The notes under the pieces were generated by a model. It worked only from the letters and a program-made list of their open reading frames with translations. It made no database searches and had not been told where the DNA came from. DNA of 40,561 nucleotides from Paragemmobacter kunshanensis (GTDB lineage Bacteria; Pseudomonadota; Alphaproteobacteria; Rhodobacterales; Rhodobacteraceae): contig NZ_JAALFE010000012.1 of NCBI RefSeq assembly GCF_011059185.1, forward strand, positions 1 to 40,561. The letters run 5' to 3'. A program made the position numbers and the translations under genes. Positions 180 to 17,256 of this stretch are shown here, one piece after another; position 1 is the stretch's first letter; every line of letters begins with the position of its first letter.

Positions 180-210
180 GCGGACCTTCGCGAGCATGAC
201 GAAGGTCCGC
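180..210. terminator. 11-bp perfect hairpin after the truncated gene
   Basis: Inverted repeat GCGGACCTTCG / CGAAGGTCCGC at 180-190 and 200-210 with a 9-nt loop. It lies 8 nt after the stop codon of the remnant. No T-tract follows, so it may be a weak or Rho-assisted terminator, or a repeat element. The remaining bases to 383 hold no gene that I can support. Confidence 0.4.
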
Positions 211-383
211 TTCCCGCCCAAAATGACGAAACCATGTCTGCGAAGCGGCCTTGGCCGTCGCTACACCTGACCGTCTCTTATCGGATCCCTGCGTCGCGAT
301 AGGCACGCGAAATGACGCTATCGTGAGAGCTTAACTCCGGCATGAGCTTGCCAAATCAGAGCAGTCGGGGTTGTGCGACAGCG

Positions 384-2978
384 TCATGTCCCACGCACCG
401 TCAATGCCATCCCGCCCAGATCCCGGAACGCCCTTTGCCGACAGCTGAGCACGATGATCTGCTGGCCTGACGCCTGCGCGTGCAGGGCGTTGAACATCTT
501 TTCGATGCGGTCGTCGTCGGTATAGACCAGCGCGTCGTCGAAGATGATGGGCGCGTGGTGGCCTCGGGCGGCGAGGAGGCGGGCGAAGGCGAGGCGGACG
601 AGGAGGGCGATCTGTTCCTGCGTGCCTCCTGACAGGATCGAGAGCGGCTCCTCGCGCCCGTCGCGGACCAAGGCGGTGGGAAGCAGGCTTTCGCCGTCGA
701 AGCGCAGTTCGGCATCGGGCCAGAGCATGCGGAGAAGTGGCCGCAGTTCGGCGAGGACGGGTTCGAAATAGCGGTCGCGGGCCTCGTTGCGGGCGGCTTC
801 GAGGGTAGTGGCGAGTTCCTTGAGGACGGCGACCTCGAAGCTGATGGTGGCAAGGGACTCGGTGGCTGCATCAAGGCGGGTCGTGGTGTCGGCCAGTTCC
901 TCCATGACGCCTGCGCCGGACTGGATCTTGATTTCCGTGTCGAGCTGGGCGCGTTCCAGTTCCAGCCGCGTCGTTTCACTGCGGGCGCTTTCCACGATCG
1001 ACTTTGCGCGGTCGAAGGCGGCTTGTGCGGCCATCAAGTCGGGGGCGGCGGCGAGGAGTGCGGCGTGTTTGGCGCGGGCTTCTTCCAGCGCGGTCGTGGC
1101 GCTGGCCAGTTGCGGGAGGAGGGTGGCCTCTGCGTCTTCGCCGAAGGTGACGAGTACCGCTTCTGCGCGGGCGAGTTCGTTGGCGAGGCTGGTGGCCTGC
1201 ACGCTGGCGCGGACTTCGGCGGTGCGGAGGCGTTCGGCTTCGGCGCGGGCGGCTTCGTGTGCCGTTTCGGCGGATTGCAGAGCGATACTAGCCTTGTCAG
1301 CGGCTGTCTGGGCCTCGGCCACGGTCGGCAGGCCTTCGCGGGGTGTGACCGCTTCGGGCAGGGCGGACAATTCGGCCTCTAGCGCGGGCAGGCCCTGCGG
1401 AGCGAGGGAGGCGAGGCTCGCGTCGAGGTCGCGCAGGGCCGAGGTCGCCTCGGTGCGGGCGGTGGCTTCGGATTGCGCGGTGGCGAGATCCGGCAGACCG
1501 AGGCGGGAGAGGGAGGTGGCGAACGCGGCCTCGGCGCGGGCGAGATCATCGCTGTCGTTTCCGGCGGCGGGCTTGACCGTGAAGTGGCCGAGGCCAGGCA
1601 TGTCGAAGCGGGTCTCGGCCAGCACCGGGAGGGGTGTTTCGGGAACCGGATTGTCGCCTGTCGTGACGCGGGCGGGTCCGGTGTGGTGGAAGGTGATCTG
1701 GGCCGCACTGCGGTCGCGCAGGGCGCGTTCGAGGGCTGCGGCTTGCGAAAGGTTTTGCAGCTCGGCCAGCGCTTTGGCGTCGGGGCCACGGGTCGCAGCC
1801 AATGCCAGCGGCGCGCGCTTTTCCAGCAAGGCGCGGGCTTTTCCGATGCGGTCGGCAAGATCCTTGCGGCGGGCGGCGGCGGCAAGGGATGCGACGGCGC
1901 GGTTCGCCTCGGCCAGTTCGGCGTCGGCGGTGGTTTTCGCGTGGCGAGCGGCGGCGAGTGCGTCGGCGAGGGGGATCAGGGCGGCTTCGGCCTGTGCGCT
2001 GGTTTCCTTGGCTGCGCGGGCTGCGGCTTCGGCGGATTGCAGATCGGCCTTTGCCTTTGCGCAGGCGGATTGGGCGCGGTGGAGGGCCGAGAGACGCTCG
2101 GACAGGGTCGCCTGAGTCATCTCCGCTGCCCGCAGTGCGGCGGTCGCGTTGTCCAGCGTGTCGGCGTGGCGTTTGGCCTCTTCAAGGGCGCGAGTGGCGT
2201 CTTCGAGGCGGGTCTGGCGCGTCTCGACTTCGTCGGGTGCGGTCAGGCTGGTCAGTGTCTTGACCACCTCGCGGCGGCGGGCAAGCGCGGCGGTCAGCTG
2301 ACGGGCGGTGGTTTCGAGACGTGCCTTCTCTTCGGTCAGCATGTTAACTAAGGCTTCAGCATCGGAGAGAGGCTTACCCTTGATCGCTTTTCCGTTGGGG
2401 GTGACATATTTCGCCAGTTCCTCGCGGGTCCGGGCCAGTGCCTTGTCCATGCGGCGACCGCCGGTCAGGGCCTCGACCTCGCCGGTGACAGAGGTCATCA
2501 GGTTGCGGCGGGCGGCTTTGGCGGCGTCCCTTTCCTTGGGGCTGTCGCCTTCGCCTTCCAGCCGTGTCAGCCCCTGACGCACCCAGAGAAGGCCCGCAGG
2601 CCCGCCATCCCCTTCGGCTTGGACGATGGCCGAGATGAAGGCTTCGGCATCGTCGGCCTGATGGATGAGGGTGCCGTTGCGATGCACCGTGGCTTGGGCC
2701 TTGCCGAGCCAGCGTTTGGACAGGGTGTAGCGGGCATCGCTCAGCTCCACCTCGACCGTCACGCAGGGCGAGCCGCCGACATGCGGACGTAGCGCGTTGA
2801 TTTCCTTGGATTTCGAGCGGTGGGGTTGGAAGAACAGGGCTTGCAGCGCGTCGAAGAGGGTGGATTTGCCGAATTCGTTCGGCGCGCAAAGCACGTTCAG
2901 GCCGGGCCCGATGCCGTCGATGCAGACAGGGGCGACGAAGCGGCGGACGTCGGAGAGTTCGATGGAGACGAGTTTCAT
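384..2978 (-). CDS. YhaN/SbcC-like AAA ATPase with SMC-type coiled coil
   Basis: An 864-aa protein with ABC/SMC-type ATPase halves separated by a long Ala/Glu/Arg-rich coiled-coil region. The Walker A motif APNEFGKST is at residues 32-40. Near the C-terminus come the signature LSGGTQEQ and the Walker B/D-loop stretch PIIFDDALVYTDD. The family (YhaN, related to SbcC/Rad50) acts with a metallophosphoesterase subunit on DNA ends during repair. I chose the ATG at 2976-2978, giving MKLVSIELSD, because its ATGA overlaps the stop of the upstream nuclease gene. The 67 residues further upstream in the open frame are Pro/Arg-rich shadow of that gene. It is translationally coupled and surely co-transcribed with the nuclease. 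The exact substrate is unknown. Confidence 0.88.
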   Translation of the reverse strand: MKLVSIELSDVRRFVAPVCIDGIGPGLNVLCAPNEFGKSTLFDALQALFFQPHRSKSKEINALRPHVGGSPCVTVEVELSDARYTLSKRWLGKAQATVHRNGTLIHQADDAEAFISAIVQAEGDGGPAGLLWVRQGLTRLEGEGDSPKERDAAKAARRNLMTSVTGEVEALTGGRRMDKALARTREELAKYVTPNGKAIKGKPLSDAEALVNMLTEEKARLETTARQLTAALARRREVVKTLTSLTAPDEVETRQTRLEDATRALEEAKRHADTLDNATAALRAAEMTQATLSERLSALHRAQSACAKAKADLQSAEAAARAAKETSAQAEAALIPLADALAAARHAKTTADAELAEANRAVASLAAAARRKDLADRIGKARALLEKRAPLALAATRGPDAKALAELQNLSQAAALERALRDRSAAQITFHHTGPARVTTGDNPVPETPLPVLAETRFDMPGLGHFTVKPAAGNDSDDLARAEAAFATSLSRLGLPDLATAQSEATARTEATSALRDLDASLASLAPQGLPALEAELSALPEAVTPREGLPTVAEAQTAADKASIALQSAETAHEAARAEAERLRTAEVRASVQATSLANELARAEAVLVTFGEDAEATLLPQLASATTALEEARAKHAALLAAAPDLMAAQAAFDRAKSIVESARSETTRLELERAQLDTEIKIQSGAGVMEELADTTTRLDAATESLATISFEVAVLKELATTLEAARNEARDRYFEPVLAELRPLLRMLWPDAELRFDGESLLPTALVRDGREEPLSILSGGTQEQIALLVRLAFARLLAARGHHAPIIFDDALVYTDDDRIEKMFNALHAQASGQQIIVLSCRQRAFRDLGGMALTVRGT

Positions 2979-4111
2979 GCCCGATCCTCGCGCAGGTAGC
3001 CATACAGACGGTTGAGGGCGGCGGCAGCGGTGCGGCGTGTTTCGCCGTCGAGGGCCGCATCGTCGGCGCGGTCTTTCAAGCGGTCGGCGGCAAGACGCAG
3101 GGCACCTGCGCGGTCGATCTGGTCGAGGTCGGTGGCTTCGACCTCGGTTTCGAGGGCGGTGGTGTCGAGGGTGAACCATGCGAAGTCCGGCGCGACGGCG
3201 GCTGCGGCCTCGGTCAGGGCGGCGTGTTCGGCCAGCGTGGCGCGGCCTGTGGCGCGGATGCGCATGAGGTGGTCGCGGCGTTCGGCCCGGTCGGGCGGCA
3301 ACAGGGCGGCGAGGGCTTCGGCGGTGTTCTGGCCGGGGAGGAGGGGCAGCACCTCATCATGCCATGCGAAGCGGCCGGTCGGGAAGGTTTCGACCTGAGG
3401 CGGGGAGTCGGGCGCGGTGAGCGTGACGCAGATGCAGGTGCCGCGCCCATCATGGGTGAAGGCGTCGCGTTCAGGCGTGCCGGGATACCATGTCCGGTCG
3501 CCGACGCGGACATGGCCGTGCCAGTCACCAAGGGCGAGGTAGTCGAGCCGTGCGGTGGCGGCACGGTCGGGCGGGATGGTATCCTCGGCGCGCGCGCCTT
3601 CTTCCGAGAAGTTCTGGATCGATCCGTGGGCCAGTCCGATGCGGAAGGCGCGGGGGTCCGTCTCGCATCCGGGCATATGGGAGGTGAGGTCGCGGCCCGG
3701 ATAGCGGCGGGGCAGCGGGGCCGGAAGGAGGAAGACGTTGGGTGCGATTTCGACAGGTTCGACATCGTCGAGGAGGTGGACGTTGGCGGGGGCCTGTTCG
3801 CGGAAGCGGGACCAGAGGGATTCGGCAGCAAGGCTGTCGTGGTTGCCGGGGATGATCCACCAGTGATGGGTCGGGTTCGCCCCCATCGCGGCCAATGCCT
3901 GCCGCCAGACGGGATCGGTCGGGGTTTCGCTGTCGAAGAGGTCGCCTGCGATCAGGATGTGCTCGGCCTCGTGGAACTGCGCCGCGGTGATCAGGTGGTT
4001 GATCGCGTTGTGCCGCGCCTCGACCAGACGGCCGCGCAGGTCTTCGGGATAGCCACCGAAACGGCGACCGAGGTGGAGATCGGCAGAGTGGATGAAACGG
4101 AAGGGGGGCAA
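2975..4111 (-). CDS. YhaO/SbcD-like DNA repair metallophosphoesterase
   Basis: A 378-aa calcineurin-like phosphoesterase of the SbcD/Mre11/YhaO type. Metal-binding motifs are visible in order: D11 and H13 in HSADLHLG, GD at 56-57 (AGDLFD), GNHD at 89-92, a histidine near 162 (AHGS) and GDWHGH at 195-200. The region after about 250 is the usual variable cap. It ends in a 4-bp ATGA overlap with the YhaN-like ATPase gene, so the two make a nuclease-ATPase pair expected to process DNA ends in the cytoplasm. It starts 209 bp from the divergently transcribed MerR-type gene. Family is certain by motif; the role in this host is inferred. Confidence 0.9.
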   Translation of the reverse strand: MPPFRFIHSADLHLGRRFGGYPEDLRGRLVEARHNAINHLITAAQFHEAEHILIAGDLFDSETPTDPVWRQALAAMGANPTHHWWIIPGNHDSLAAESLWSRFREQAPANVHLLDDVEPVEIAPNVFLLPAPLPRRYPGRDLTSHMPGCETDPRAFRIGLAHGSIQNFSEEGARAEDTIPPDRAATARLDYLALGDWHGHVRVGDRTWYPGTPERDAFTHDGRGTCICVTLTAPDSPPQVETFPTGRFAWHDEVLPLLPGQNTAEALAALLPPDRAERRDHLMRIRATGRATLAEHAALTEAAAAVAPDFAWFTLDTTALETEVEATDLDQIDRAGALRLAADRLKDRADDAALDGETRRTAAAALNRLYGYLREDRA

Positions 4112-4247
4112 GGTCGCCTCCTGAATGACTGTGACGCCGGACGGATTCGGGGGGCGAATCTGCCCTTGGTTAATGAATAGACTGGGGTCGTGTCAGAATC
4201 TGTCGCCCTGCCCGGTTAGTTAGGACTTGCACGGGCTGCGAGATCAA

Positions 4248-4262
4248 GACAAAAATTTTGTC
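4248..4262. promoter_or_regulatory. 15-bp palindrome upstream of the MerR-type gene
   Basis: GACAAAA-A-TTTTGTC is a perfect inverted repeat just upstream of a promoter-like TTGACA. It lies in the divergent region between the nuclease/ATPase operon and the MerR-type gene, so it is a candidate operator. Binding by any particular protein is inference. Confidence 0.45.
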
Positions 4263-4271
4263 ACGTTCTGC

Positions 4272-4301
4272 TTGACAGAGAATTAAACGCGACACAATTT
4301 A
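4272..4301 (+). promoter_or_regulatory. Candidate sigma70 promoter for the MerR-VIT/vWA operon
   Basis: A consensus TTGACA at 4272-4277 is followed after 17-18 bp by an AT-rich CAATTTA stretch at 4295-4301. The segment is much richer in AT than its surroundings. The TTGACA box is strong; the -10 box is weak. A GGAG ribosome site follows at 4311-4314. Confidence 0.45.
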
Positions 4302-4320
4302 TGTCTCGTTGGAGCCCGAC

Positions 4321-4665
4321 ATGACCTTGAACGACCTTGCCGAACGTCTTGGCGTTCCGGCGCGACAGATCCGCTTCCTGATTGCCGAGGGGATCCTTCC
4401 CCCGGCGGCCAAGACCGGACGCGCGGCGGATGGCTATGACGAGACGCATGTCCTGAAAGGTCAGCGGTATCTGGCGCTGCACCGGATGGGGATGAAGCCC
4501 GGCTCGATCAAGGTCCTGATGGCCTTCGACGATGCGGTGCCGATCCTTCAGGCGGGCGGCGTCGAGTTGCGGGTGGATCCGGGAATTTCCCCGGAGGCGA
4601 TCGACATTGAAACGGTTCTGGGCGCGGTCGAGGCGGCGCTGCGGGCCTATGTTGCAAAGGGATAG
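4321..4665 (+). CDS. MerR-family transcriptional regulator, small
   Basis: A 114-aa protein that opens with a winged-helix MerR-type domain: MTLNDLAERLGVPARQIRFL, then the wing with Y and H residues before KGQRYLALHRMGM. The C-terminal ~40 residues are short and carry no metal-binding cysteines, so this is not a classical metal sensor. I prefer the ATG at 4321, with GGAG 7 nt upstream, over an in-frame TTG at 4309. The next gene, encoding a VIT/vWA protein, starts 4 bp after the stop, so the two form an operon. MerR-type regulators are known companions of VIT/vWA proteins. The ligand is not known. Confidence 0.8.
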   Translation: MTLNDLAERLGVPARQIRFLIAEGILPPAAKTGRAADGYDETHVLKGQRYLALHRMGMKPGSIKVLMAFDDAVPILQAGGVELRVDPGISPEAIDIETVLGAVEAALRAYVAKG

Positions 4666-4668
4666 GGA

Positions 4669-6714
4669 ATGGGTGTCACGGCATTCGGGCATGCGCTGGA
4701 AACGATACATGACGGGTTGACGGTGTTTGCTGGTGGCAGGCCCGCGCCCGTGCCGCTGGTGGCGACCGATATTGCGGTCGGGATCGTGGCTGGGTTGGCG
4801 ACGGTGCGCACCTCGCGGCGGTTCGTGAATGCGGAAGGTCGGCCCATCGAGGCGATCCTGACCATGCCGGTCGGCTTTGATGCCGTGGTGACGGGGATGC
4901 GTGCGGTGGTGGATGGCCGCGTCCTTGTTGCCGCAGCCAAGCCCAAGGCAGAGGCGCGGGACAGCTATGAGGCTGCGTTGGACGAGGGAAAGCTGGCCGT
5001 GCTGCACGAGGAAGTGCTGCGCGGGGTCCATGCGCTGTCGGTCGGCAATCTGGGCGCGGGCAAGGAAGTGACGGTCGAGATCGAGACGGTGGTGCCGCTG
5101 TCCGCGGGCGCATCCGGGCCGTTCCTGCGGATACCGGTGACGGTGGGGCAATTGTACGGGGCGTCCCCGCTGGCCCCTGTCGATGATCTGGCGACGAGCG
5201 CGCATGTGCGGCACGAGGCCGATCTTTCCGTGACGGTGGATGCGGGTCAGGTGTTGCTGGGCGGACGCTTGGTCACTGGTTCGCAGCGGATCACTCTGGA
5301 TGCCGCGATCGAGATCGTGGTGCAGGGTGGGCGGTTCGGGGCGCATCAGGGTGTGGCGGCGGACGGGCGGCAGGTGCGCGTCGATCTGCGGCAGGTGGCG
5401 GCGGGTTCCGGGGCGCTGGATCTGGCGGTTCTGGTCGATCATTCGGGGTCCACCGGATCGAAGGCCGAAGGGCCGCGCGGGCTGACGGTGTGGGAGGCGA
5501 TCCGCGACGGGCTGCGGCTGGAGCTGGGGCGGCTGCGCGGGTCGGACCGGATCGCGCTGTGGGAGTTTGACGACGACTGTCGACAGCTTGGCGCGGCGAT
5601 TGGACCGGAGGCGGCACGGCTGGTGTCGAAGCTGCGGAAACCTGCGGGCGGCACCGAACTTGACCGGGCGGTGGATGCAGCGGTGCGGGAAGGGGCGCAG
5701 GATATCCTCGTGCTGACGGACGGGCAGACCTGGGCTGCGACGGTGGATGCGCTGGCTGCGTCGAAAGCGCGGATTTCGGCGATCCTTGTCGGTCCGGGCA
5801 GTCTGGATGCGAACATCGGGCAGCTCTGTGCCATGACGGGGGGGCAGCTGTTCTATGCGCCGGGCGATGATGTGGCGGCGAGTCTTGCGCTGGCATTTTC
5901 GGCCTTGCGGCAGCGTGGTCAGGCGGCTGACGGCCAAGTCGTTGCGGGTGCGCCGGAGCGGGTCGTTGCTCTTCGCGGCGGGGTGGAGATCACGGCGGAA
6001 TGGTCCGAGGCGATGGAGTTGCGCAGGGCGGATGCCGTGGGACGTTTTGCGGCAGCCTTGACTTTGCCGCTTCTCGGTGCAGAGGCAGCGGAAGATTTTG
6101 CGCGTGCCCACGGGCTTTGCACGCACCGCAGCAGTCTGGTTCTGGTGGACGAGGCGGGCGAAGTGGTCGAAGGCATGGCGCAGCAGCGCAAGGTGCCGTT
6201 GATGGCGTCGCGGTATGCTGCGGGCGTCACGCAGTCTGTCGATACGGCGATGCCCTCCATGTCATTTGCGAAGCGCAGCTTTGCTGCACCGCCTCCGATC
6301 TCCAGAATGCGGATCATGACTGACCGGGATGCATTGCCCAGCTTCAGAGCAGATGTTTCATTCTTCATGAAGCCGACCATTCCGCCCGAAGATCTTCGCC
6401 AGATGTTCGCTGGCCTGCGCTGGGATGCCTTGTGCGAAGAATTTCTGGCCGGAAATGTCAGCAGCCTAGATGAGGCGCAGCAGGATGCGGTTTCGAGGAT
6501 TGCGGCTTCGGATCCGATTGCGCACTTCGCAGCGGTTGCGGGCTTGCCTCCGGCGACGGTGGTGCTGGCCTTGATCGCCGATCTGATCGACGACCGGCTG
6601 GCGCGGCGCTTCGTCAAGCAGGCGTTCAGGGGTCTGCCGGTTGCCGATTGGGCGCATCTGCGGCTTTGGGATCAGTCTCCGTCCCGAGGGCTCTTCGCCC
6701 GTTGGGGTGCCTGA
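4669..6714 (+). CDS. VIT and von Willebrand factor A domain protein
   Basis: A 681-aa protein without signal peptide. Residues ~1-150 match a VIT (vault/inter-alpha-trypsin) domain, with the typical stretch about the self-processing core (RFVNAEGRPIEAILTMP). Residues ~245-420 form a vWA domain with MIDAS motif DHSGSTGS and a later TDGQ, and the expected strand order. The C-terminal 200 residues are Ala-rich helices that I do not recognise. VIT/vWA proteins bind divalent metal and act as scaffolds; the bacterial role is not settled. It begins 4 bp after the MerR-type gene and converges with the WYL regulator, leaving only 4 bp between them. Confidence 0.85.
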   Translation: MGVTAFGHALETIHDGLTVFAGGRPAPVPLVATDIAVGIVAGLATVRTSRRFVNAEGRPIEAILTMPVGFDAVVTGMRAVVDGRVLVAAAKPKAEARDSYEAALDEGKLAVLHEEVLRGVHALSVGNLGAGKEVTVEIETVVPLSAGASGPFLRIPVTVGQLYGASPLAPVDDLATSAHVRHEADLSVTVDAGQVLLGGRLVTGSQRITLDAAIEIVVQGGRFGAHQGVAADGRQVRVDLRQVAAGSGALDLAVLVDHSGSTGSKAEGPRGLTVWEAIRDGLRLELGRLRGSDRIALWEFDDDCRQLGAAIGPEAARLVSKLRKPAGGTELDRAVDAAVREGAQDILVLTDGQTWAATVDALAASKARISAILVGPGSLDANIGQLCAMTGGQLFYAPGDDVAASLALAFSALRQRGQAADGQVVAGAPERVVALRGGVEITAEWSEAMELRRADAVGRFAAALTLPLLGAEAAEDFARAHGLCTHRSSLVLVDEAGEVVEGMAQQRKVPLMASRYAAGVTQSVDTAMPSMSFAKRSFAAPPPISRMRIMTDRDALPSFRADVSFFMKPTIPPEDLRQMFAGLRWDALCEEFLAGNVSSLDEAQQDAVSRIAASDPIAHFAAVAGLPPATVVLALIADLIDDRLARRFVKQAFRGLPVADWAHLRLWDQSPSRGLFARWGA

Positions 6715-6718
6715 CAGA

Positions 6719-7717
6719 TCAGGGCAGCGCGGGGAAATCCCTGCGCTGGAAGCCTGCAACCATTGCACGCAAGCGGTCGGGGGCCAGAACCTCGACCGTG
6801 TCGCCCCAGAGGTAGAGATGCCAGGCCATTTCCAGATGCCCAGAGGCGTGGAAGCGGACGGTCAGGCTTCCGTCCGGCTCCTCCGTCACCTCTTGCAGCG
6901 GGTGGAAGATGAACTCGCGGGCGACGGCCGCAGCCTTCGGGGCGAAGCGCCAGATCACCTCGGCGAATTCCTCGTCCGCGTGGAAGCTGCCGAAGGCGCG
7001 GGCGGCGTGGGCTTCGAGGTTGAAGTCGGGATCGCGGTTGAAGGACGCGGCCTCCAGCCGCGCGGCGGTGATCCGGTCAAGGCGGAAGTGCTGCAAGCGC
7101 CCGTTGCCGCCCCTGACCTTGGCCACGAGGTAACGGCGGGTGCCAAGGAGCATTCCATAGGGTTCGACGGTGCGTTCGGTCCCGTCAGGCTTGCTGCCGC
7201 CTGCATAGGTGATGGTCAGAAGGTTCGGCCCCTTCAGCGCCTCGGCCACCGTTTCGAGGACGAGGGTGGCGGTCCGCACCCGCGGCCCGGGGCGCGAGGC
7301 GAAGCCATAGGCCTCCAGCACCGCCTCGGCATCGCTTTCGGCGCGGCGGGCGTGGGGGCGGGCCATGCTGGCAAGCAGACGGTCGCGGAGGGATTTCAGG
7401 GCTTTCACCTCGTTCGTCGCGCCATCCCTTTCGGCGCGGCGAAGGGCGATTTCGAGGGCGGCGAGTTCGCTGTCGCGGATGCCTTGGGCGAGCATCAGGC
7501 GGGCGGCGTTGCCGTCGAGCCGCCAGTATTTGCGGCGTTCGTCGTCGACGCGCGTGGTGCAGGTGTCGAACACCTCTTCCAGCACCCGCGTCATGCGCTG
7601 CGCGGTGCGGCGGTCGACGCCGAATTCCTCTTCGATGTCTCCGAGGCCAACGCCTGAATGGCGCGACGTTGCCATTTCGGCGAGGCGAAGCAGGTCAACG
7701 GCTTTGGTGAATGACAT
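6719..7717 (-). CDS. WYL-domain HTH transcriptional regulator
   Basis: A 332-aa regulator. Residues ~1-65 form a DeoR/HTH_11-like winged helix (LLRLAEMATSRHSGVGLGDI, then DRRTAQRMTRVL). Residues ~150-230 form a WYL domain with EPYGMLLGTRRYLVAK and FRLDRI. The C-terminal ~80 residues are a WCX-like extension. I set the start at ATG 7717 (MSFTKAVDLL); residues upstream in the open frame look random. WYL proteins usually bind ssDNA or nucleotides and often control DNA-damage or phage-defence loci. It is divergent from the 234-aa orphan across a 92-bp gap, so it may regulate that gene. Confidence 0.82.
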   Translation of the reverse strand: MSFTKAVDLLRLAEMATSRHSGVGLGDIEEEFGVDRRTAQRMTRVLEEVFDTCTTRVDDERRKYWRLDGNAARLMLAQGIRDSELAALEIALRRAERDGATNEVKALKSLRDRLLASMARPHARRAESDAEAVLEAYGFASRPGPRVRTATLVLETVAEALKGPNLLTITYAGGSKPDGTERTVEPYGMLLGTRRYLVAKVRGGNGRLQHFRLDRITAARLEAASFNRDPDFNLEAHAARAFGSFHADEEFAEVIWRFAPKAAAVAREFIFHPLQEVTEEPDGSLTVRFHASGHLEMAWHLYLWGDTVEVLAPDRLRAMVAGFQRRDFPALP

Positions 7718-7809
7718 GGTTAATGCCCGTGACAGGTTTTGCCACCCATAGCACGTAAAGTCAGATTTGGGACGAGAGCTTTTCCATTTGCCGATGAAAG
7801 GAAGTTTCG

Positions 7810-8514
7810 ATGCAGATCCAGCACAGCCATTTTGCGACCAACGCTTCCCTCCGGACTGCCCTGAAACGCGGTCTTGCGCGTCAGGCAATGTCGCATGCGG
7901 CGCAGGCCGAAGGAGATGTTGCAGCGCTTGTCCGCATTTCGACGAACATGCGGCCGAATGCGAAGGCCATGCAGCGGCTCGCACAACAACTGGCTTCACG
8001 GAAGGGAGTGGTGAAAGTTGCCAAGGGCGACGAAGGGCTTGTCGTCTTCGTCCGCAATGTCTGCCAGATCCGCAACCAGATTGATCAGCAGGACCTCTTC
8101 ACCGAAACGGCGCTCGTCTATACCCGGTTTGCGATCCGGTGCCTGCGGACGGGTGTCGGGTATCATGTGTCTCGGGCCAGTTTCTGCCTGCATGCTCTCG
8201 AAAGGTTGGTGGAGCGTAGCGCGATTGCGCTGGACCGCCCGCTTTTGCCAGTTGCCGATCAGGAAGGCATGCGTGTCCTGCGGGGCTTAGCGCAGGGCAG
8301 GGATTTCACCGAGAGTGGCGATCATTTCATTCCAGCAGCCGCGAATGGAGTCTGGGCAGGCGGCGTGGACCAGGCTGCCCTGGACGAAGATTGGGGATTG
8401 GTCTGCAAAGATGCTGCCGGAGTTCCTCTATTCTCTGTGCGAACCTTTCTGAGTGAGGACGAGATGCGTCCCACGGTCTGGTATTCGTGGAAGCAGGAAG
8501 CATCGGACCGGTAG
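7810..8514 (+). CDS. Unrecognised 234-aa protein divergent from the WYL regulator
   Basis: I do not recognise this protein. The start at ATG 7810 is supported by an AAGGAAG ribosome site. It has no signal peptide or membrane segment. The first 80 residues are basic and helical (MQIQHSHFATNASLRTALKR). A central segment contains SRASFCLHALERLVERSA, followed by a mixed alpha/beta C-terminal half rich in D, E and W. Codon use and base composition look like a real gene. It lies between a WYL regulator and a tyrosine recombinase inside a probable genomic island, so an island-specific or defence-related role is possible, but no catalytic motif supports that. Confidence 0.7.
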   Translation: MQIQHSHFATNASLRTALKRGLARQAMSHAAQAEGDVAALVRISTNMRPNAKAMQRLAQQLASRKGVVKVAKGDEGLVVFVRNVCQIRNQIDQQDLFTETALVYTRFAIRCLRTGVGYHVSRASFCLHALERLVERSAIALDRPLLPVADQEGMRVLRGLAQGRDFTESGDHFIPAAANGVWAGGVDQAALDEDWGLVCKDAAGVPLFSVRTFLSEDEMRPTVWYSWKQEASDR

Positions 8515-8542
8515 AGCAAGCCACGACTTCTGGCCCCGACAG

Positions 8543-9868
8543 TTATTCAACCATCATCGCACATTCCTCATAGTACCGCTCCAACCGCGCCGTCGCTGCG
8601 CGCGTCCGCTTGCGCATGCTCTTTTCGATTCCGGGATCCGTCTCGGGCCGATAGGTCAGGCCGATCCCGCTCTGATGCGGCTTGGTCATCAGGCGGTCGA
8701 CCACGGCTTTGGCTTTCAGGTGCCCATCGCCCGGATTGGCATGGGAGAGCAGTTCGTGATGCGGGAAGTCATCGTCGACGTAGCTTTCGAGAGCAGAGGC
8801 TGCGGTCCGGCGCAGGTCGTGGCGCGTCCAGTTCATAGTGCCGGTTGCCTCCTGGATCGCTTTCGTTGCGGCATCCCAGTCGCAGAACGGCCCGCCCTCG
8901 CTGTTCGGGAAGAGATATGCGCCCAGCTTGTTCCGGTCGTAGCTTGGCAGAGAGGTCACCCAGGCGATGATCGACGGAGACAAGCCGATGGTCTTGGTTG
9001 CGCCTCCCTTCGCGACGAAGGTCCAGGTTCCGTCGATAGGGTTGATATCACCACAACGGATCGTGGCGACGGGCCCACGCCGGGAGGCAGTGCACATGAT
9101 GAACCGGTGAATAGAATGCCCGATCCCTGCATCAGGCTTGGTCACTTCCCGCCAGACCAATCCGGCTTCCTTGGTGTTCAATGTGCGCTCGCGGCGGCGA
9201 GGTTCACCGGGTTTGTGGATGTTCTGCACTTCGGGGAGTTCGATGGGCACTTTCCGACCGCTTCCCATCTTTGCGAATTTCCCTCGGTTCGCCGCCCAGT
9301 CGAACAGGGTGCGCAGGTAGGAAAGGCCGCGAGATGCCGAACCGGGGGCCGTGACGTTGTGCCCTCCGGTCACGACGTCATTGATCGTTTCGAGGTCAAG
9401 CTCGCGCACCGGCTCGTCCAAAACAGTATGGAAGACGTTTTCGAGCGTTCCGACTGCGTCGGGGGTCTTGCGGTGCTCCCGCAGCGACCAGATCTTCCCT
9501 CCGATCCTGCGCTTGGCGAGAATGGGGGTGGCCTCGAGGATCAGTTGGCGCAGGGTCACGCGGCATGCGGAACGGGGGCCGTATTTGAGGGTATGCCGTT
9601 TGACCGACAGGATCTTCTCGCGTGCTTGAATCCGGACCTTTTCGAGGTCGACCTTGTCGGGCGAGCCGAGGGCGATGGTCGGCGTCTTGCCGCCCACGCT
9701 GATCTTGCAGACATACCGGCGCAGTCCTGTCGGCGAGACGCGCAGGACGAGGCCCGATACCACACTGTCGCGCAGTTCGATACGTTTCGTGGCATCGGTC
9801 GTTGCCTTGTCAGCAATAGCCTTGGTCAGTCGGACCGTCTGCGATTCACTGAAGATATGCGTGGACAT
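8543..9868 (-). CDS. Tyrosine recombinase/integrase, first copy
   Basis: A 441-aa integrase with an N-terminal arm-type DNA-binding domain (~20-110) followed by a core-binding domain and catalytic domain. Visible catalytic features are TASRRGP (Arg box, with Pro where many have Glu), a Lys in the beta-hairpin near FVAKGGATK, RHDLR (His-x-x-Arg box), SHANPG (third His) and a Tyr in GLTYRPE as likely nucleophile. It reads away from the Fic gene. It is a paralogue of the integrase at 11330-12703: a 32-nt block covering the HxxR region is identical in both (8799-8830 and 11568-11599). Which attachment site it uses is not known. Confidence 0.85.
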   Translation of the reverse strand: MSTHIFSESQTVRLTKAIADKATTDATKRIELRDSVVSGLVLRVSPTGLRRYVCKISVGGKTPTIALGSPDKVDLEKVRIQAREKILSVKRHTLKYGPRSACRVTLRQLILEATPILAKRRIGGKIWSLREHRKTPDAVGTLENVFHTVLDEPVRELDLETINDVVTGGHNVTAPGSASRGLSYLRTLFDWAANRGKFAKMGSGRKVPIELPEVQNIHKPGEPRRRERTLNTKEAGLVWREVTKPDAGIGHSIHRFIMCTASRRGPVATIRCGDINPIDGTWTFVAKGGATKTIGLSPSIIAWVTSLPSYDRNKLGAYLFPNSEGGPFCDWDAATKAIQEATGTMNWTRHDLRRTAASALESYVDDDFPHHELLSHANPGDGHLKAKAVVDRLMTKPHQSGIGLTYRPETDPGIEKSMRKRTRAATARLERYYEECAMMVE

Positions 9869-10043
9869 GTTCGCCGCCGTCGTTGATGCGGCGGGGACAT
9901 GAGTCCGTCGAAAAAATGTGAGAGGCGGGTTTGATGCGTGGCGCGTGCCTGCAAAAGCGGCCGCCCTGTCGGCTTCTGTGACGTCGTCGGGAAGTAGTCG
10001 CTGATACAGAGGAACCTACAACAAGGCCTCTCGCACGGATTCT

Positions 10044-10072
10044 TTATTCACCTTTTTGCAATAAGCTATAAT
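10044..10072 (+). promoter_or_regulatory. Candidate promoter of the Fic gene
   Basis: A consensus TATAAT lies at 10067-10072 inside an unusually AT-rich stretch; a weak -35-like TTTATT lies 17 bp upstream at 10044-10049. The -10 is 38 bp before the Fic start codon. The rest of the 241-bp gap from 9869 holds no other gene that I can support. Confidence 0.5.
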
Positions 10073-10109
10073 ATACATCCGGAGTTCTCGGCCTTATTGA
10101 AGGTTTTCC

Positions 10110-11312
10110 ATGCGCTACAGCGATCTGTCTGCTGTCGTCCGCTCCACGCTCGTGCCCTATCCTGCACCCCATTCCAATCACCGGGGCGTGGTGCCGCTGG
10201 CCCCCTCGCGGGGATCGATCCCGATCGGCGGAGCCGAGGTGGGCGCGCTTCTTCACTCCGCGAATTCCGCCCTTGTCCGAATGACCGAACATGTCCGGCC
10301 CGGCCTTTCCGCTTTCGCCCTCACGCGGATACTCGAGCGGCAGGAGGCGCTGACCAGTTCGTCGATTGAAGGCACCCACGGAACGCTCGACGCGCTTTTG
10401 GCCGGAGAGGCGGATGGGGAGGCCGAGGGGAACATCCGCGAGATTGGTGGAGTAACGCGGGCCATATCCCAAGGTCTCGACGTGATATCGAAAATGGGGC
10501 GCGACGGCTTCACGCTGGATCTTGTCTGCGATCTGCATCGCATCCTCGCCTCGAACATGGAGCGATACCGCGACACGCCGGGCGTGCTGCGGAACAGGGT
10601 CGTCTGGATCGGACCAATCGGCCCGACCCCCGACAACTCCAGCTGGAACCCGCCGCCGCCTGATCGCGTCGCTGCCTGTCTTGAGGATACGCTCGCCTAC
10701 ATGCGCGCGGATGTGGAGGACCCTTCGCAGGTTTCCCCGATCGTCCGCGCGGCAGTTGCACATGCGCATTTCGAGGCGGTCCACCCATTCTCTGACGGCA
10801 ATGGCCGGATCGGGCGCATCCTGATCCCGCTGATGTTCGCGGCAGAGGGTCATGCGCCCGTCTATATCTCCCCGTGGATCGAGGCAGCGGACCACAAGCA
10901 GGCCTATTTTGCCGCCCTCAAGGCAGCGCAGCAGCGGCTCGACCACGGACCGCTGGTGCGACTGATCTCGGAGGCAATTCTGGGGATCGAAGCGGAGTTC
11001 AAGGTAACGATGAAGGCGATCGCCACGATTGAGGCGGGCTGGCGTAAAAGGATTCCTCTGAGGCGCAACTCTGCGGCTGATCGGACACTCCGTTTGCTCC
11101 CGGCCTATCCGGTGATCACGGCGAAAAGGCTGGCACAGCTTCTGGATGTCAGCTTCAAGAGCGCTAACGACGGGATCGGTCAACTGGAGAAGGCGGGGGT
11201 TCTGACCTTACGGAAAGCGCAGTCGCGAAACCGCGTTTTCCAGTCGCGAGAGATCCTCGGGGTCCTGACGAGGCCCTTCGGGTCCGATCCGTTTGATCAC
11301 GATACGGTCTGA
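10110..11312 (+). CDS. Fic-domain protein (AMPylase type) with C-terminal HTH
   Basis: A 400-aa protein. Residues ~20-100 form a Fic N-terminal domain carrying the inhibitory helix motif SSSIEG at 83-88 (E87 would block ATP gamma-phosphate). The Fic core has the full motif HPFSDGNGRIGR at 225-236, with catalytic H225. The C-terminal ~90 residues form a winged helix (TAKRLAQLLDVSFKSANDGI). Such class II Fic proteins transfer AMP from ATP to protein targets and are self-inhibited. No separate small antitoxin gene is visible upstream. It sits alone between two minus-strand integrases on the plus strand. The target protein is unknown. Confidence 0.9.
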   Translation: MRYSDLSAVVRSTLVPYPAPHSNHRGVVPLAPSRGSIPIGGAEVGALLHSANSALVRMTEHVRPGLSAFALTRILERQEALTSSSIEGTHGTLDALLAGEADGEAEGNIREIGGVTRAISQGLDVISKMGRDGFTLDLVCDLHRILASNMERYRDTPGVLRNRVVWIGPIGPTPDNSSWNPPPPDRVAACLEDTLAYMRADVEDPSQVSPIVRAAVAHAHFEAVHPFSDGNGRIGRILIPLMFAAEGHAPVYISPWIEAADHKQAYFAALKAAQQRLDHGPLVRLISEAILGIEAEFKVTMKAIATIEAGWRKRIPLRRNSAADRTLRLLPAYPVITAKRLAQLLDVSFKSANDGIGQLEKAGVLTLRKAQSRNRVFQSREILGVLTRPFGSDPFDHDTV

Positions 11313-11329
11313 ACCGGGGCAGATTGGCG

Positions 11330-12703
11330 TCACTGATGGCGGGACCGGTCCTTCATCCGCGCCTCCATCATCGCTATGAGACGGTCATAGGTCGCGGCGA
11401 GCCGGTCGAGGGCGTCCTTCACTGGATCCACTTCGTTGGTCCACATCCGCGCCACGACCATGTAATGTTCTGACGCTCCGCCCCCGCCCGCCGACTTGAT
11501 CGGGGAGGCGTGGTTCAGGATGGTCTCGATGATATGCACCGGAATTCCCGCCTGGAGCATGACGGTCGCTGCGGTCCGGCGCAGGTCGTGGCGCGTCCAT
11601 CCCGACGTTCCGGTCGCGGCCTGGATGACCTTGCCAGCGCGGTCCCAGTTCATTTGCAGCCCTCCGTTTGCGTTCGGGAAGACGAGTTCGGACGGCAAAG
11701 CCTTCATTGCGCGCGGGAGGCTTCCGAGAAGGTCCAGCGCTTTGTCCGACAGAGGTAGCGACTGCTTCCGTGGGGCCGTGCCGAAACCCTTTGTGTCCGG
11801 CTTCATCCAGACACCATTGAGCCAGTCGACATCGCCCCACTTCATCGTCGTGACCTCGGACAGACGTGCCGCTGTCAGCAGGACGAAGCGGAGTGCCACA
11901 TAGGCGTAGTCTTCCTCTGGCGGCACCTGTGTCCTTTCGAGTGACGCGGGGCGCGGATAGGTGAGCAGGGGGTAGATCGCGGTGAATTCGGGGATCGTGA
12001 GCACCCGGGTTCGAAGGCCGGTGATGGTCGGATCATCCAGCTTCGGGTCGAAGACCTCGCGGATGTCTGGCGCGTTGAGTTTCGGCTGGCGACCAGCGCC
12101 GATGGGGCGGAACCGTTTGCGGTGGGCCGCCCAGTTCAGGACGGTGGCAAGGTAGGACATCGTGCCGGACACATGGCCCGACCCCGTCTGCCCAGTCTGG
12201 CGTCCTTGGGGGCGGTAGCATGCCACGACTTCGGCAAGGTCGTGGGCGGTCAGGCTTTCGACAGGTTTGTCGAGAAGGGGTTTGAAGACGGAATCGATGG
12301 AACGCCGTGCTGAAGATCTCCGGTTCGTCTCGCTCATCAATCGCCAAGATTTCAGGGTGCGGCTGAATTTGGCCTCGGCTTCGATCAGGAGTTCCTGCAG
12401 CGTGGTGGGGTCGATCTTTCGTGCTTCTTCGACCGTGACGGATGCAGGGATCTTGCCGCCCCCTCTGAGCTCGGACCTTATCCGGGCGGCAGCGTCGCGC
12501 GCTTCCTTGACCGAAATCTCCGGATAGAGCCCGATGGCGACCGTCCGCATCTTTCCTTCGCGGTCGCGACAGGCGACGACGAATGTCTTGGTCCGCTTTC
12601 CGATGCGGACCGCGAAGTCCGTCACCTTCGTGTCGCGGATCATGAGGCGCGGCCCCTTGCTGGTGGTGCCGGCGACAAGCTTCTCGGTCAGTTCCTTCTT
12701 CAT
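11330..12703 (-). CDS. Tyrosine recombinase/integrase, second copy, next to the tRNA-Phe scar
   Basis: A 457-aa integrase. The arm-type DNA-binding domain spans ~1-95 and the core-binding domain ~100-200. The catalytic domain shows LTAARLSEV (Arg box), TRHDLRRTAA (HxxR box), LNHASP (third His) and a Tyr in SEHYMV as likely nucleophile. All catalytic residues are present. I chose ATG 12703 (MKKELTEK) because a GAAGGGCAG ribosome site precedes it; an in-frame start 22 codons earlier is less likely. Its 5' end lies 245 bp from the truncated tRNA-Phe at 12949-12993, so this is the best candidate for the enzyme that made that site. Confidence 0.88.
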   Translation of the reverse strand: MKKELTEKLVAGTTSKGPRLMIRDTKVTDFAVRIGKRTKTFVVACRDREGKMRTVAIGLYPEISVKEARDAAARIRSELRGGGKIPASVTVEEARKIDPTTLQELLIEAEAKFSRTLKSWRLMSETNRRSSARRSIDSVFKPLLDKPVESLTAHDLAEVVACYRPQGRQTGQTGSGHVSGTMSYLATVLNWAAHRKRFRPIGAGRQPKLNAPDIREVFDPKLDDPTITGLRTRVLTIPEFTAIYPLLTYPRPASLERTQVPPEEDYAYVALRFVLLTAARLSEVTTMKWGDVDWLNGVWMKPDTKGFGTAPRKQSLPLSDKALDLLGSLPRAMKALPSELVFPNANGGLQMNWDRAGKVIQAATGTSGWTRHDLRRTAATVMLQAGIPVHIIETILNHASPIKSAGGGGASEHYMVVARMWTNEVDPVKDALDRLAATYDRLIAMMEARMKDRSRHQ

Positions 12704-12864
12704 GTTCTGCCCTTCGGTTGGGGCAGGAGAAGACGCGATCAGGCCATGTTGAATGGCCTTGATGGCCACGAAGAGCGCTCTGCCTGGACTTGCTTAGGAC
12801 TTGAAATCGCTGCGACCGGGCCCTTGATTCGGAGCCGACTGGCGACTGTGGCGAGTTGCCCTGA

Positions 12865-12877
12865 GGTAAATTTTACC
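12865..12877. promoter_or_regulatory. 13-bp palindrome upstream of the second integrase
   Basis: GGTAAA-T-TTTACC is a perfect inverted repeat between the integrase start and the tRNA scar. It may be an operator or an integrase/Xis accessory site. This is inference from position only. Confidence 0.3.
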
Positions 12878-12948
12878 CGGCATTTCCAATGGCTTGATGC
12901 CAATGTCCTGCGCGCTTTTCCCAAGATGGGTCAGGTCTTCTGCCCCGC

Positions 12949-12993
12949 TTGAAAATCCGCGTGTCGCTGGTTCGATTCCGGCTCTGGGCACCA
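12949..12993 (+). repeat. 3' half of tRNA-Phe(GAA): probable att site and island end
   Basis: The 45 bases read as anticodon loop TTGAAAA (anticodon GAA), 3' anticodon stem TCCGC, variable GTGTC, T-arm GCTGG/TTCGATT/CCGGC, acceptor TCTGGGC, then A and CCA. The 5' half is missing: bases just before are CCCGC, not the GCGGA needed to pair with TCCGC, and no GCCCAGA acceptor occurs upstream. Tyrosine integrases often cross over in tRNA anticodon loops, so this is the expected scar at one end of an integrated element. The intact tRNA-Phe should be at the other end, outside the window. From 12994 to 13196 I see nothing else. Confidence 0.82.
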
Positions 12994-13196
12994 CCTCCTC
13001 TGCCAAGCAGTTGAAACGCCCCGCTGTTCTTGCGGCACCCTGAGTGTCCGGGAGATGGTCTCTGCCATGCCGGTGCCTTGTGCCCCTGGAGAGGGTGGCC
13101 GGGCTGGCCGTGGGCGGGGGCTGCCCTTCTTGAGGCAGACATGCGCCGCTCGCCGGCGGGGATCCGGGGGGGCGGCGCGGGGCGGGGCGGCGGCGC

Positions 13197-15541
13197 TCAG
13201 ATCAGGAAGAGGTCGCCGAAGGCAAGCTCGGTTCCCGCGCCGAGGGAGGCGATCAGAACCGCGCTGCGGTTCCCCGATCCATCGGAATCATAGAAGAGTT
13301 GGCCGGTAGCACGATTGTAGACAAGGAAATCGTTGGAATCCCGCGCAACCGGGCCGAAGCAGAGTCCGTTTGCCGCCAGCACGGACCCGACCCGCGAGAC
13401 GATCCCGCTGGGGCCGCCGGAAAGGCCGACCCGGTCAAGGCCCGTGGTGAAATCGGTGATCGTATCGGCTCCGCCCGCGACGAGGGCGGCGTCGAAGAGG
13501 AAGACATCGGCCCCCGTGCCGCCGGTGAGGCGGTCGGCGCCGGACCCGCCGTTCAGCGTATCGGCCAACTCATCGCCCGCGAGCGTGTCGTTGCCCGCAC
13601 CGCCAAAGAGCATGTCGTTGCCGTTGCGGCCCTGAAGCAGATCGTTGCCCTGGCCGCCGAAGAGATGGTTCCCATCCGAGGAGCCGAGCAGGATATCGGC
13701 ATGGCGAGAGCCTTCCAGATCCTCGATGCCGAAATAGCGGTCGCCCTGAGGGGCGCCTGTATTCGTGGCCGCATCGAGGAGATCGGCGCGCAGCCCGGCC
13801 GTGGCATCGGCATGGGAGACGCGATCGCGTGTGCCGCTGCCGCCATCGAACTGATCCGCGCCATCGCCCCCCGTCAGCGTATCGTTGCCATTGCCGCCAT
13901 AGAGCCTGTCATTCCCCGCGCCGCCCGACAGCAGATCATCGCCCGCCGCGCCATAGAGGCTGTCATTGCCCGCATTTCCGGCGATCGTGTCGGCAAGATC
14001 CGACCCCATGATCGTGTCGCGCGTGATGTTCTGGTCATCGCCGTAAAGGTTCACGCCCTGGTTGCGGGTGAAGACGATCTGGATCAGTTCGAGTTGACCG
14101 AGGGTGAAGTCGAAGATGCCGTTGCGATCCTGATCAAGGGCGGTTTGCGTCCAGGCGCGCAGCTGGCCCCGGGTGAACTCGCCAAGGGCATCCTGACCCG
14201 GCGCCGCGCCAAGGGAGGTGGCGTGGATATGGTAGCCCTGACCCATCAGGTCACGGAAATCTACCGTGAAGCGGGCGTTGTCGTTCAGGACATTCGCGTA
14301 ATAGACGACGATCCGGTCGGTATCGTCGGAGATTAACGAGAATGTCAGACCGGCCTGGCGATCGGCGGCATCCTGAACGACTGCCTGTGCTCGAGACGTT
14401 TCCGTCTCTCCCGCATTGGTGACATCGACATATCTTGTCCCGACAAGGTTTTCGCGCATCATCCGGAACAGCTGGCCGGTTGGGGTGAGGATATCCTCGC
14501 CAGCCGCGTTCAGGAAACCTGGTTTGGTGCCGTGGAGCGTGAACACCGAAGCATCGGTGACACCGGCGCTTAGCAGATTTGAGAAGCCCCAGACGAAGAG
14601 CGACAGCCTTTCCAGCCCGGTGATTATCCCCGCCGCGCCATTCTCTGACCGTTCCGCCCTGACATTCCATTCCGTCGTGATGATGTCGACATCGGGCAGG
14701 ATTCCGAGCGAGGCGAGATCGCTGCGAAGTGAGTCTGTGCGGCGGGAGGCGACCCAATTGGTTGCGGTCTCAAAAACTCCGAGCGGCGTGTCTTGACGAC
14801 CTGCCGGAAAGTAGAAGTGATCTAGAATTCCGTCGACAAAGCCATGCGCTCCTTCACGCTTCAGCGCCTGAAGGATTTCGGCGGCGTCTCTCTGATTGTT
14901 CATGTCCCAATCCGCTTCGCCGCCGCCTCTGGCCTGAATCCAGATCCGAGGATCGGCGATCGAGCTATCCGCTGCGCGCGCTTCGTTGATCGCCTCATGC
15001 ACATAGCGCACGATCTTTGCCTGAAGCGCGCCGAACTCTGCCGCTGTCCAGTCAGACGGGGTTGTGTCTTTCACCTTTTGGCCATTTTCCATCGTATAGG
15101 ACTGGGCCCAATCCGGGTGAAACCATTCGTTCCCAATTTCAAATGCGTGGATATCCGCCTCTCCGTAAGCACCTGAAAGCAAGGATTTCACGAAGTCCTT
15201 TACGTCTTTCTTGGCCGTGGCGACGATCCCGCTTCCGTCAAAGAAGCATTGGGTTGGTATCCCATGATCGTTTTCTGCTGGGCTGCACTGGCCGCTGCCA
15301 GGAAGCCTGACAGGGTTTCCTTCAGGCCATTCGTGGTGGAATTCGGTTGTGTGACGTCAAAGGAACGCTCGGTATGGAAGCCGCCTGGAAAGCGGACATA
15401 ATCCGGTGCGATCTTGGAGAAGGCATTGGTGAGTGACGCAGCCGTGTAGCTTCCCGCTTCGAACTGCACGCCGAAATGGCGATCCGTGACGGCTGTTGCC
15501 GTCCTGAGCGCGGGATCTATCGAAAACTTGATTTCTGCCAC
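13197..15541 (-). pseudogene. Frameshifted RTX-repeat secreted glycoside hydrolase-like protein
   Basis: Two minus-strand frames, 15541-15200 and the frame continuing to 13197, make one protein of about 780 aa if one base is restored near 15245-15255: the first frame ends after GYQPNAS and the second picks up at DGSGIVATAKKD. The N-terminal ~420 residues look like a (beta/alpha)8 hydrolase of the arabinofuranosidase/clan A type, with EIGNEW (acid/base Glu) and IITTEWN (nucleophile Glu). The C-terminal third holds two blocks of GGxGxD calcium-binding nonapeptides and a terminal type I secretion-like tail. There is no Sec signal. It starts at GTG 15539-15541 behind a G10 tract. No ABC exporter lies nearby. 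Family of the enzyme domain is tentative; the frameshift could be real or a read error. Confidence 0.75.
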
Positions 15542-15673: not shown

Positions 15674-15681
15674 GTCAGGCC

Positions 15682-17256
<1,575 letters not shown>

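Follow-up and report, generated by a model that had tools for sequence, protein, structure and literature searches.

The window analysed here, 40,561 nucleotides long, starts contig C22 of the Paragemmobacter kunshanensis assembly (genome G000). Its left part carries an accessory gene block with two tyrosine integrase genes, int1 and int2, and a piece of a tRNA gene follows. To the right lie an RTX-repeat gene and leuA. The features relevant to this analysis are as follows.

1-77, strand not specified: IS-like repeated end (terminal repeat 52-77) at the start of contig C22; the repeat occurs at 18 contig ends, presumably as part of an IS
384-8514, strand not specified: island cargo, comprising an SbcC/SbcD-like pair, a MerR regulator, a VIT-domain protein, a WYL regulator and an unknown ORF at 7810-8514 (Pfam, NCBIfam)
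8543-9868, minus strand: second tyrosine integrase, int1 (Arm-DNA-bind_3 above, Phage_integrase slightly below the Pfam cut-off)
10110-11312, plus strand: Fic-family gene in the cargo slot between int1 and int2 (Pfam Fic, E 5e-17; PADLOC SoFic, E 4e-63)
11330-12769, minus strand: tyrosine integrase int2 (Arm-DNA-bind_3 and Phage_integrase; Pfam E 1e-16; likely start 12703)
12785-12806, plus strand: possible arm-type site, TGGACTTGCTT AGGACTTGAAA, an imperfect 11-bp repeat read by eye
12949-12993, plus strand: tRNA-Phe(GAA) 3' half (anticodon loop through CCA), very probably the attR of the island (45/45 match to the tRNA gene at C33:51541-51616 of G000)
12994-15541, minus strand: flank to the right of the fragment, with an RTX-repeat protein gene in two ORFs (13197-15191 and 15200-15541; HemolysinCabind Pfam match in the larger ORF)
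15682-17256, minus strand: leuA, the first gene of the conserved right-hand block (Pfam HMGL-like and LeuA_dimer)

The sequence at 12949-12993, TTGAAAATCCGCGTGTCGCTGGTTCGATTCCGGCTCTGGGCACCA, is identical to the last 45 nucleotides (C33 51572-51616) of an intact tRNA-Phe (GAA) gene, which ARAGORN calls on contig C33 at 51541-51616; run on the window, the same program calls no tRNA at 12949-12993. The extent of the match was found by extending outwards from a shared core. Its first base is the start of the anticodon loop, TTGAAAA, its last base is the CCA end, and to the left there are zero further matching bases between the window and the intact gene. A 31-nucleotide core of the fragment occurs at exactly two places in the whole 4.46-Mb genome, the window and the C33 gene, and an exact search of the same genome with the reversed pattern returned none. 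The match is not due to chance. The first-pass annotation had assigned the fragment to tRNA-Phe(GAA) by folding, had described it as running from the anticodon loop to CCA with the 5' half absent, and had proposed that an intact tRNA-Phe with the same 3' 45 bases be sought in the genome; all of this agrees with what we find. The intact gene was expected to the left of the window; in this assembly C33 and C22 are separate contigs, so that such a position on the same stretch of chromosome is no more than likely.

Both integrase genes are on the island side of the fragment. The first possible start of the int2 reading frame is a GTG 179 bp from the fragment; an internal ATG at 12703, common to the related genome G006 (Rhodobacter/Paragemmobacter amnigenus HSP-20, same genus), is 245 bp away, and it is for this start that the 245-bp spacing given in the earlier annotation is correct. 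The G006 orthologue of int2 is found at the same place and is 97% identical. Five residues of int2, R302, H394, R397, H420 and Y436, are invariant across three aligned int2 sequences, and we take them to be the catalytic residues. int1 is 29% identical to int2 and 96% identical to its own counterpart in G006. The dN/dS ratios between G000 and G006, each calculated from one sequence pair by the Nei-Gojobori method, are about 0.05 for int2 and about 0.13 for int1; given these low values, both integrases look functional and appear to be under purifying selection. A BLAST alignment had suggested that int1 is without a catalytic tyrosine. We dropped this idea, a plausible tyrosine being visible by eye further on (GIGLTY), and claim no defect.

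Sequences that integrases might bind were noted at both island ends. On C33 the left end reads ATTAAAATCC..., with TGGACTTCAAT twice in tandem. Exactly common to this repeat and the imperfect 11-bp repeat at 12785-12806 is only the 8-mer CTGGACTT; the window repeat was not reported by a repeat search at its thresholds. Both are putative arm-type sites.

A homologous island is present in G006, where the tRNA-Phe gene and both island ends are on one contig and span 55.7 kb (C3:182720-238396). The segment C3:194901-182720 matches window positions 205-9935 and 11330-12968 at 93-94%, and the 395 bp of C33 beyond its intact tRNA match the DNA at the corresponding place in G006 (561-bp match including the tRNA, 91%; C33 51454-52011). 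Since one G006 contig carries a C33-like left end together with a window-like right end, the two ends are tied to one island type. The G006 island resembles ours in its integrases (96-97% at the protein level), its cargo (93% at the DNA level) and its left end. It differs in having a 236-aa ORF instead of the Fic gene and a shorter tRNA remnant: the displaced tRNA-Phe half in G006 (C3 about 182720) runs for only 20 nucleotides before the sequence diverges. A single-protein search of the genome contigs returned one locus, that of G006 itself. The G006 assembly also bears on the question of whether the 45-base repeat gave a false join in ours, which is in 117 contigs. The junction between int2 and the fragment recurs in G006 (first 20 nucleotides of the fragment), as does the junction between the tRNA and the left island end, and ordinary short reads are longer than 45 bases. 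We consider an assembly artefact extremely improbable.

We conclude with high confidence that an integrative genomic island attached at tRNA-Phe(GAA) has its attR in this fragment, with int2 as the probable recombinase. On this model, int2 would have joined the attP of a circular element to the tRNA-Phe gene by recombination in the anticodon loop. The 3' half of the tRNA supplied by the element would restore the tRNA-Phe gene, now on C33, and the original 3' half of the chromosome would be pushed to the far end, where it would be the sequence at 12949-12993. The displaced piece starts at a sublocation known for crossovers and extends to the 3' end of the tRNA. How it is oriented with respect to the integrase can be read directly, and the cognate intact tRNA is in the same genome. 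The right end of an integrative element had already been proposed at this position, and the exact tRNA copy, the intact cognate gene and the homologous island in G006 support that proposal.

The island is an ordinary case of a known tRNA-targeted kind, and the mechanism is textbook. Among other things, the Islander survey (PMC4383910) describes the signature of such islands as a tDNA and a displaced fragment with the island between them, reports 3' fragments for 3760 of 3919 islands, and counts 2083 islands with anticodon-centred sites. Our locus shares with these islands an intact tDNA, a displaced 3' fragment, an internal tyrosine integrase and a probable crossover in the anticodon loop, but the two ends in G000 are on separate contigs and on its outer side the fragment is not flanked by the ancestral neighbourhood of the tRNA. 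Tyrosine recombinases are described as having a 7-bp overlap that coincides with the tRNA anticodon loop (PMC8371274), and the overlap for int2 would be placed as in the SSV1 integrase and the classical bacterial anticodon-loop integrases discussed there; strand exchange was measured for those integrases, whereas we infer it for int2. A limited literature search by title and abstract found no report of this particular tRNA-Phe island. The exact match locates the edge of this mobile island with single-base precision; besides its two integrases the island carries a Fic gene and repair-like nuclease genes.

A tRNA-Phe gene and a downstream remnant in the same orientation are on one contig in G006 (55.7 kb apart, 20-nt remnant) and in G003 (55.5 kb apart); in G000, C33 and the window would be the two ends of one island. 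C33 stops in an IS-like end 472 bp after the tRNA-Phe gene, and the contig of the window begins in the other end type. One terminal repeat is found at 18 contig ends, nine of each of the two types, among them the C33 end and the beginnings of C63 and C22; we presume this repeated end to be an IS. To link C33 with the window, we looked for IS-like ends with matching target duplications. Contigs C41 and C63 have an exact 9-bp duplication and C27 and C68 match at 7 of 8 bases, while pairs of same-type ends match at 6 of 7 bases (C41-C57) or over 5 and 4 bp (two other pairs). No paired target duplication was found for the C33 and C22 ends, so the left end of the window could not be joined to C33. 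The exact and the near duplication make an IS-linked rearrangement plausible.

Later IS activity or rearrangement may have parted the attR from its attL, such that the ends no longer bound one mobile unit and the fragment is a relic. This possibility, which is compatible with the origin proposed above, we regard as somewhat unlikely but worth serious consideration. The two facing contig ends are both IS-like, and among the nine IS copies implied, one end pair has the exact target duplication and one more the 7-of-8 match. The end of C33 corresponds to G006 position 238002 and that of the window to about 196909 (76-bp match, 84%), so that about 41 kb would have been lost if a single IS copy separates them. 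The ancestral left neighbour of leuA, moreover, is on C63 behind another IS-like end. Against a relic, the ratios given above indicate purifying selection on int2 and int1 between G000 and G006, the 45-nucleotide core is intact at both places, and the cargo in window 205-9935 is still colinear with the G006 island (93% identity).

The first-pass annotation placed a boundary at the fragment between accessory DNA on the left and the leuA-to-gcv region on the right. The fragment does mark an island edge, but leuA is not the original neighbour of tRNA-Phe, and the RTX-repeat gene lies between the fragment and leuA. Conservation in relatives runs rightwards from about 15675-15687. The usual left-neighbour block is within about 1.3 kb of leuA in nine of the ten relatives checked (G002, G003, G005, G006, G007, G009, G011, G014 and G018), and in the tenth, G017, leuA and this block are on different contigs. 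In G000 the block is found at C63:2547-10282, beside a transporter permease (Pfam); inspection by eye adds an amidotransferase and another permease as neighbours. In a search of 13 other genomes, nothing matched C63:90-2500 closely, the best match reaching 69% over 264 bp. The distance from tRNA-Phe to leuA in the four genus relatives that have both on one contig is about 114 kb (G002), 119 kb (G007 and G018) or 2.2 Mb (G008). Since the left neighbour of leuA is on C63 and these relatives have leuA at a great distance from tRNA-Phe, we reject the leuA block as the native right flank of tRNA-Phe; a separate event, either a rearrangement or an insertion, brought the fragment and leuA together. 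A single inversion between tRNA-Phe and leuA is insufficient as an explanation, since colinearity between C63 and G007, in the parts compared, ends at about C63:63077. The orientation of tRNA-Phe relative to leuA is flipped in G002 compared with G007 and G018.

The RTX-repeat gene has only short repeat-type matches elsewhere in relatives, and none beside leuA. The smaller ORF (15200-15541) has no HemolysinCabind Pfam match. The gene is specific to G000 at that place, and its split over two adjacent ORFs reflects either a broken gene or a sequencing error.

Other genomes point to tRNA-Phe as an insertion hotspot in the genus. Among the matches listed, a long second 3' copy of tRNA-Phe is found in three of 18 genus relatives (G003, 48 nt; G011, 49 nt; G013, 45 nt), and a second match in G012, at a contig end, looks like an assembly overlap. 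The DNA after the intact tRNA-Phe was compared for 15 of the 18 genus relatives and differs among them, apart from a few similar pairs. The same fragment in relatives without the integrases had been named in the earlier annotation as evidence that would speak against an island. This does not apply to G003, where a related integrase adjoins the fragment. It may apply in part to G011 and G013: a search for the two integrase types found no int1 or int2 relative in G011:C42:10001-48975, nor in the 597 bp present on that side of the fragment in G013. To the right of both fragments the DNA resembles, by eye, the left end of another tRNA-Phe island. The G011 and G013 fragments appear to belong to different islands inserted at this tRNA, a possible sign of tandem islands.

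By the same token, the fragment in the window could be a seam in tandem islands at tRNA-Phe, in which case 12994-15541 would be left over from a second island and would not be native flank. That block is specific to G000 at that place, the right-hand DNA in G011 and G013 offers a parallel, and the 22 bases that adjoin the fragment on its right resemble the post-tRNA flank of G002 (93% over 67 bp, of which 45 are tRNA bases). However, no tandem 11-bp repeat of the C33 type is found in 12990-13200, where a repeat search gave a single 16-nt pair with a spacing of 62; none of the ORFs in 12994-15541 was recognised as an integrase, and the block reaches leuA without a second fragment. We consider a tandem seam unlikely.

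The attR reading also draws on the neighbourhoods of int2-type integrases in other genomes. When 295 genomes of the family were searched with a profile built from three int2 sequences, eight, including G000, gave a match at E 1e-30 or better. Together with G003 and G006 this makes a set of ten int2-type genes. The G003 integrase is 42% identical to int2 over 401 aligned positions and is in the same orientation beside its own 48-nt fragment, 55.5 kb from the intact tRNA-Phe of that genome. Eight of the ten genes, our own included, are accompanied by a tRNA remnant beginning at the anticodon loop; the distance from remnant to matched integrase start is 170-246 bases in all eight. The remnant derives from tRNA-Phe in six cases (G000, G003, G006, G275, G287 and G052) and from tRNA-Met(CAT) in two (G105 and G278). 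The intact tRNA-Met genes of G105 and G278 were located, and each remnant matches its gene exactly to CCA; in G275, G287 and G052 the tRNA identity was taken from the remnant alone. Only the C-terminal part of the profile (337-461 of 479) is matched in G052, where the remnant is inside the expected span of the gene. The matches in G275 and G293 contain one stop codon each. For G293 and a truncated int2-type gene in G050, the motifs used, which could miss other tRNAs, revealed no tRNA remnant in the fetched flank.

The G287 remnant ends after 28 nucleotides, cut in the T loop; like the 20-nt remnant of G006, it shows that an attR can be shorter than a complete 3' half. The core AATCCGCGTGTC, located in the anticodon stem and variable region, is common to tRNA-Phe and tRNA-Met, with one base different in the G275 and G052 remnants. 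The Islander survey reports that integrase targets have often been switched (PMC4383910), and the present set is a small, testable case in which one integrase family reaches two different tRNAs with a common core. It is conceivable, as a speculation to which we give little weight, that the int2 family keeps one geometry while switching between tRNA-Phe and tRNA-Met, and that a tRNA-Phe att region with tandem islands may act as a seam for large rearrangements of the chromosome, which would have brought leuA beside the island and, between species, flipped tRNA-Phe relative to leuA.

The cargo differs between G000 and G006 in the slot between the integrases. The match to G006 stops at 9935 and resumes at 11330, and the intervening slot (window 9936-11329) has no Fic gene in G006; its 236-aa ORF there has no family matches. 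Relaxase and conjugation genes were sought with Pfam in nine island proteins of the window and 17 island ORFs of G006 (16 of the 25 listed plus one more), and none was found. The scanned ORFs of the G006 island interior include sugar-transport, McrBC, Z1 and DUF4420 genes, as well as a third integrase-like gene (Phage_integrase, E 4e-5, below the Pfam cut-off). The tRNA-Phe island of G003 has a Fic-like ORF directly after its integrase.
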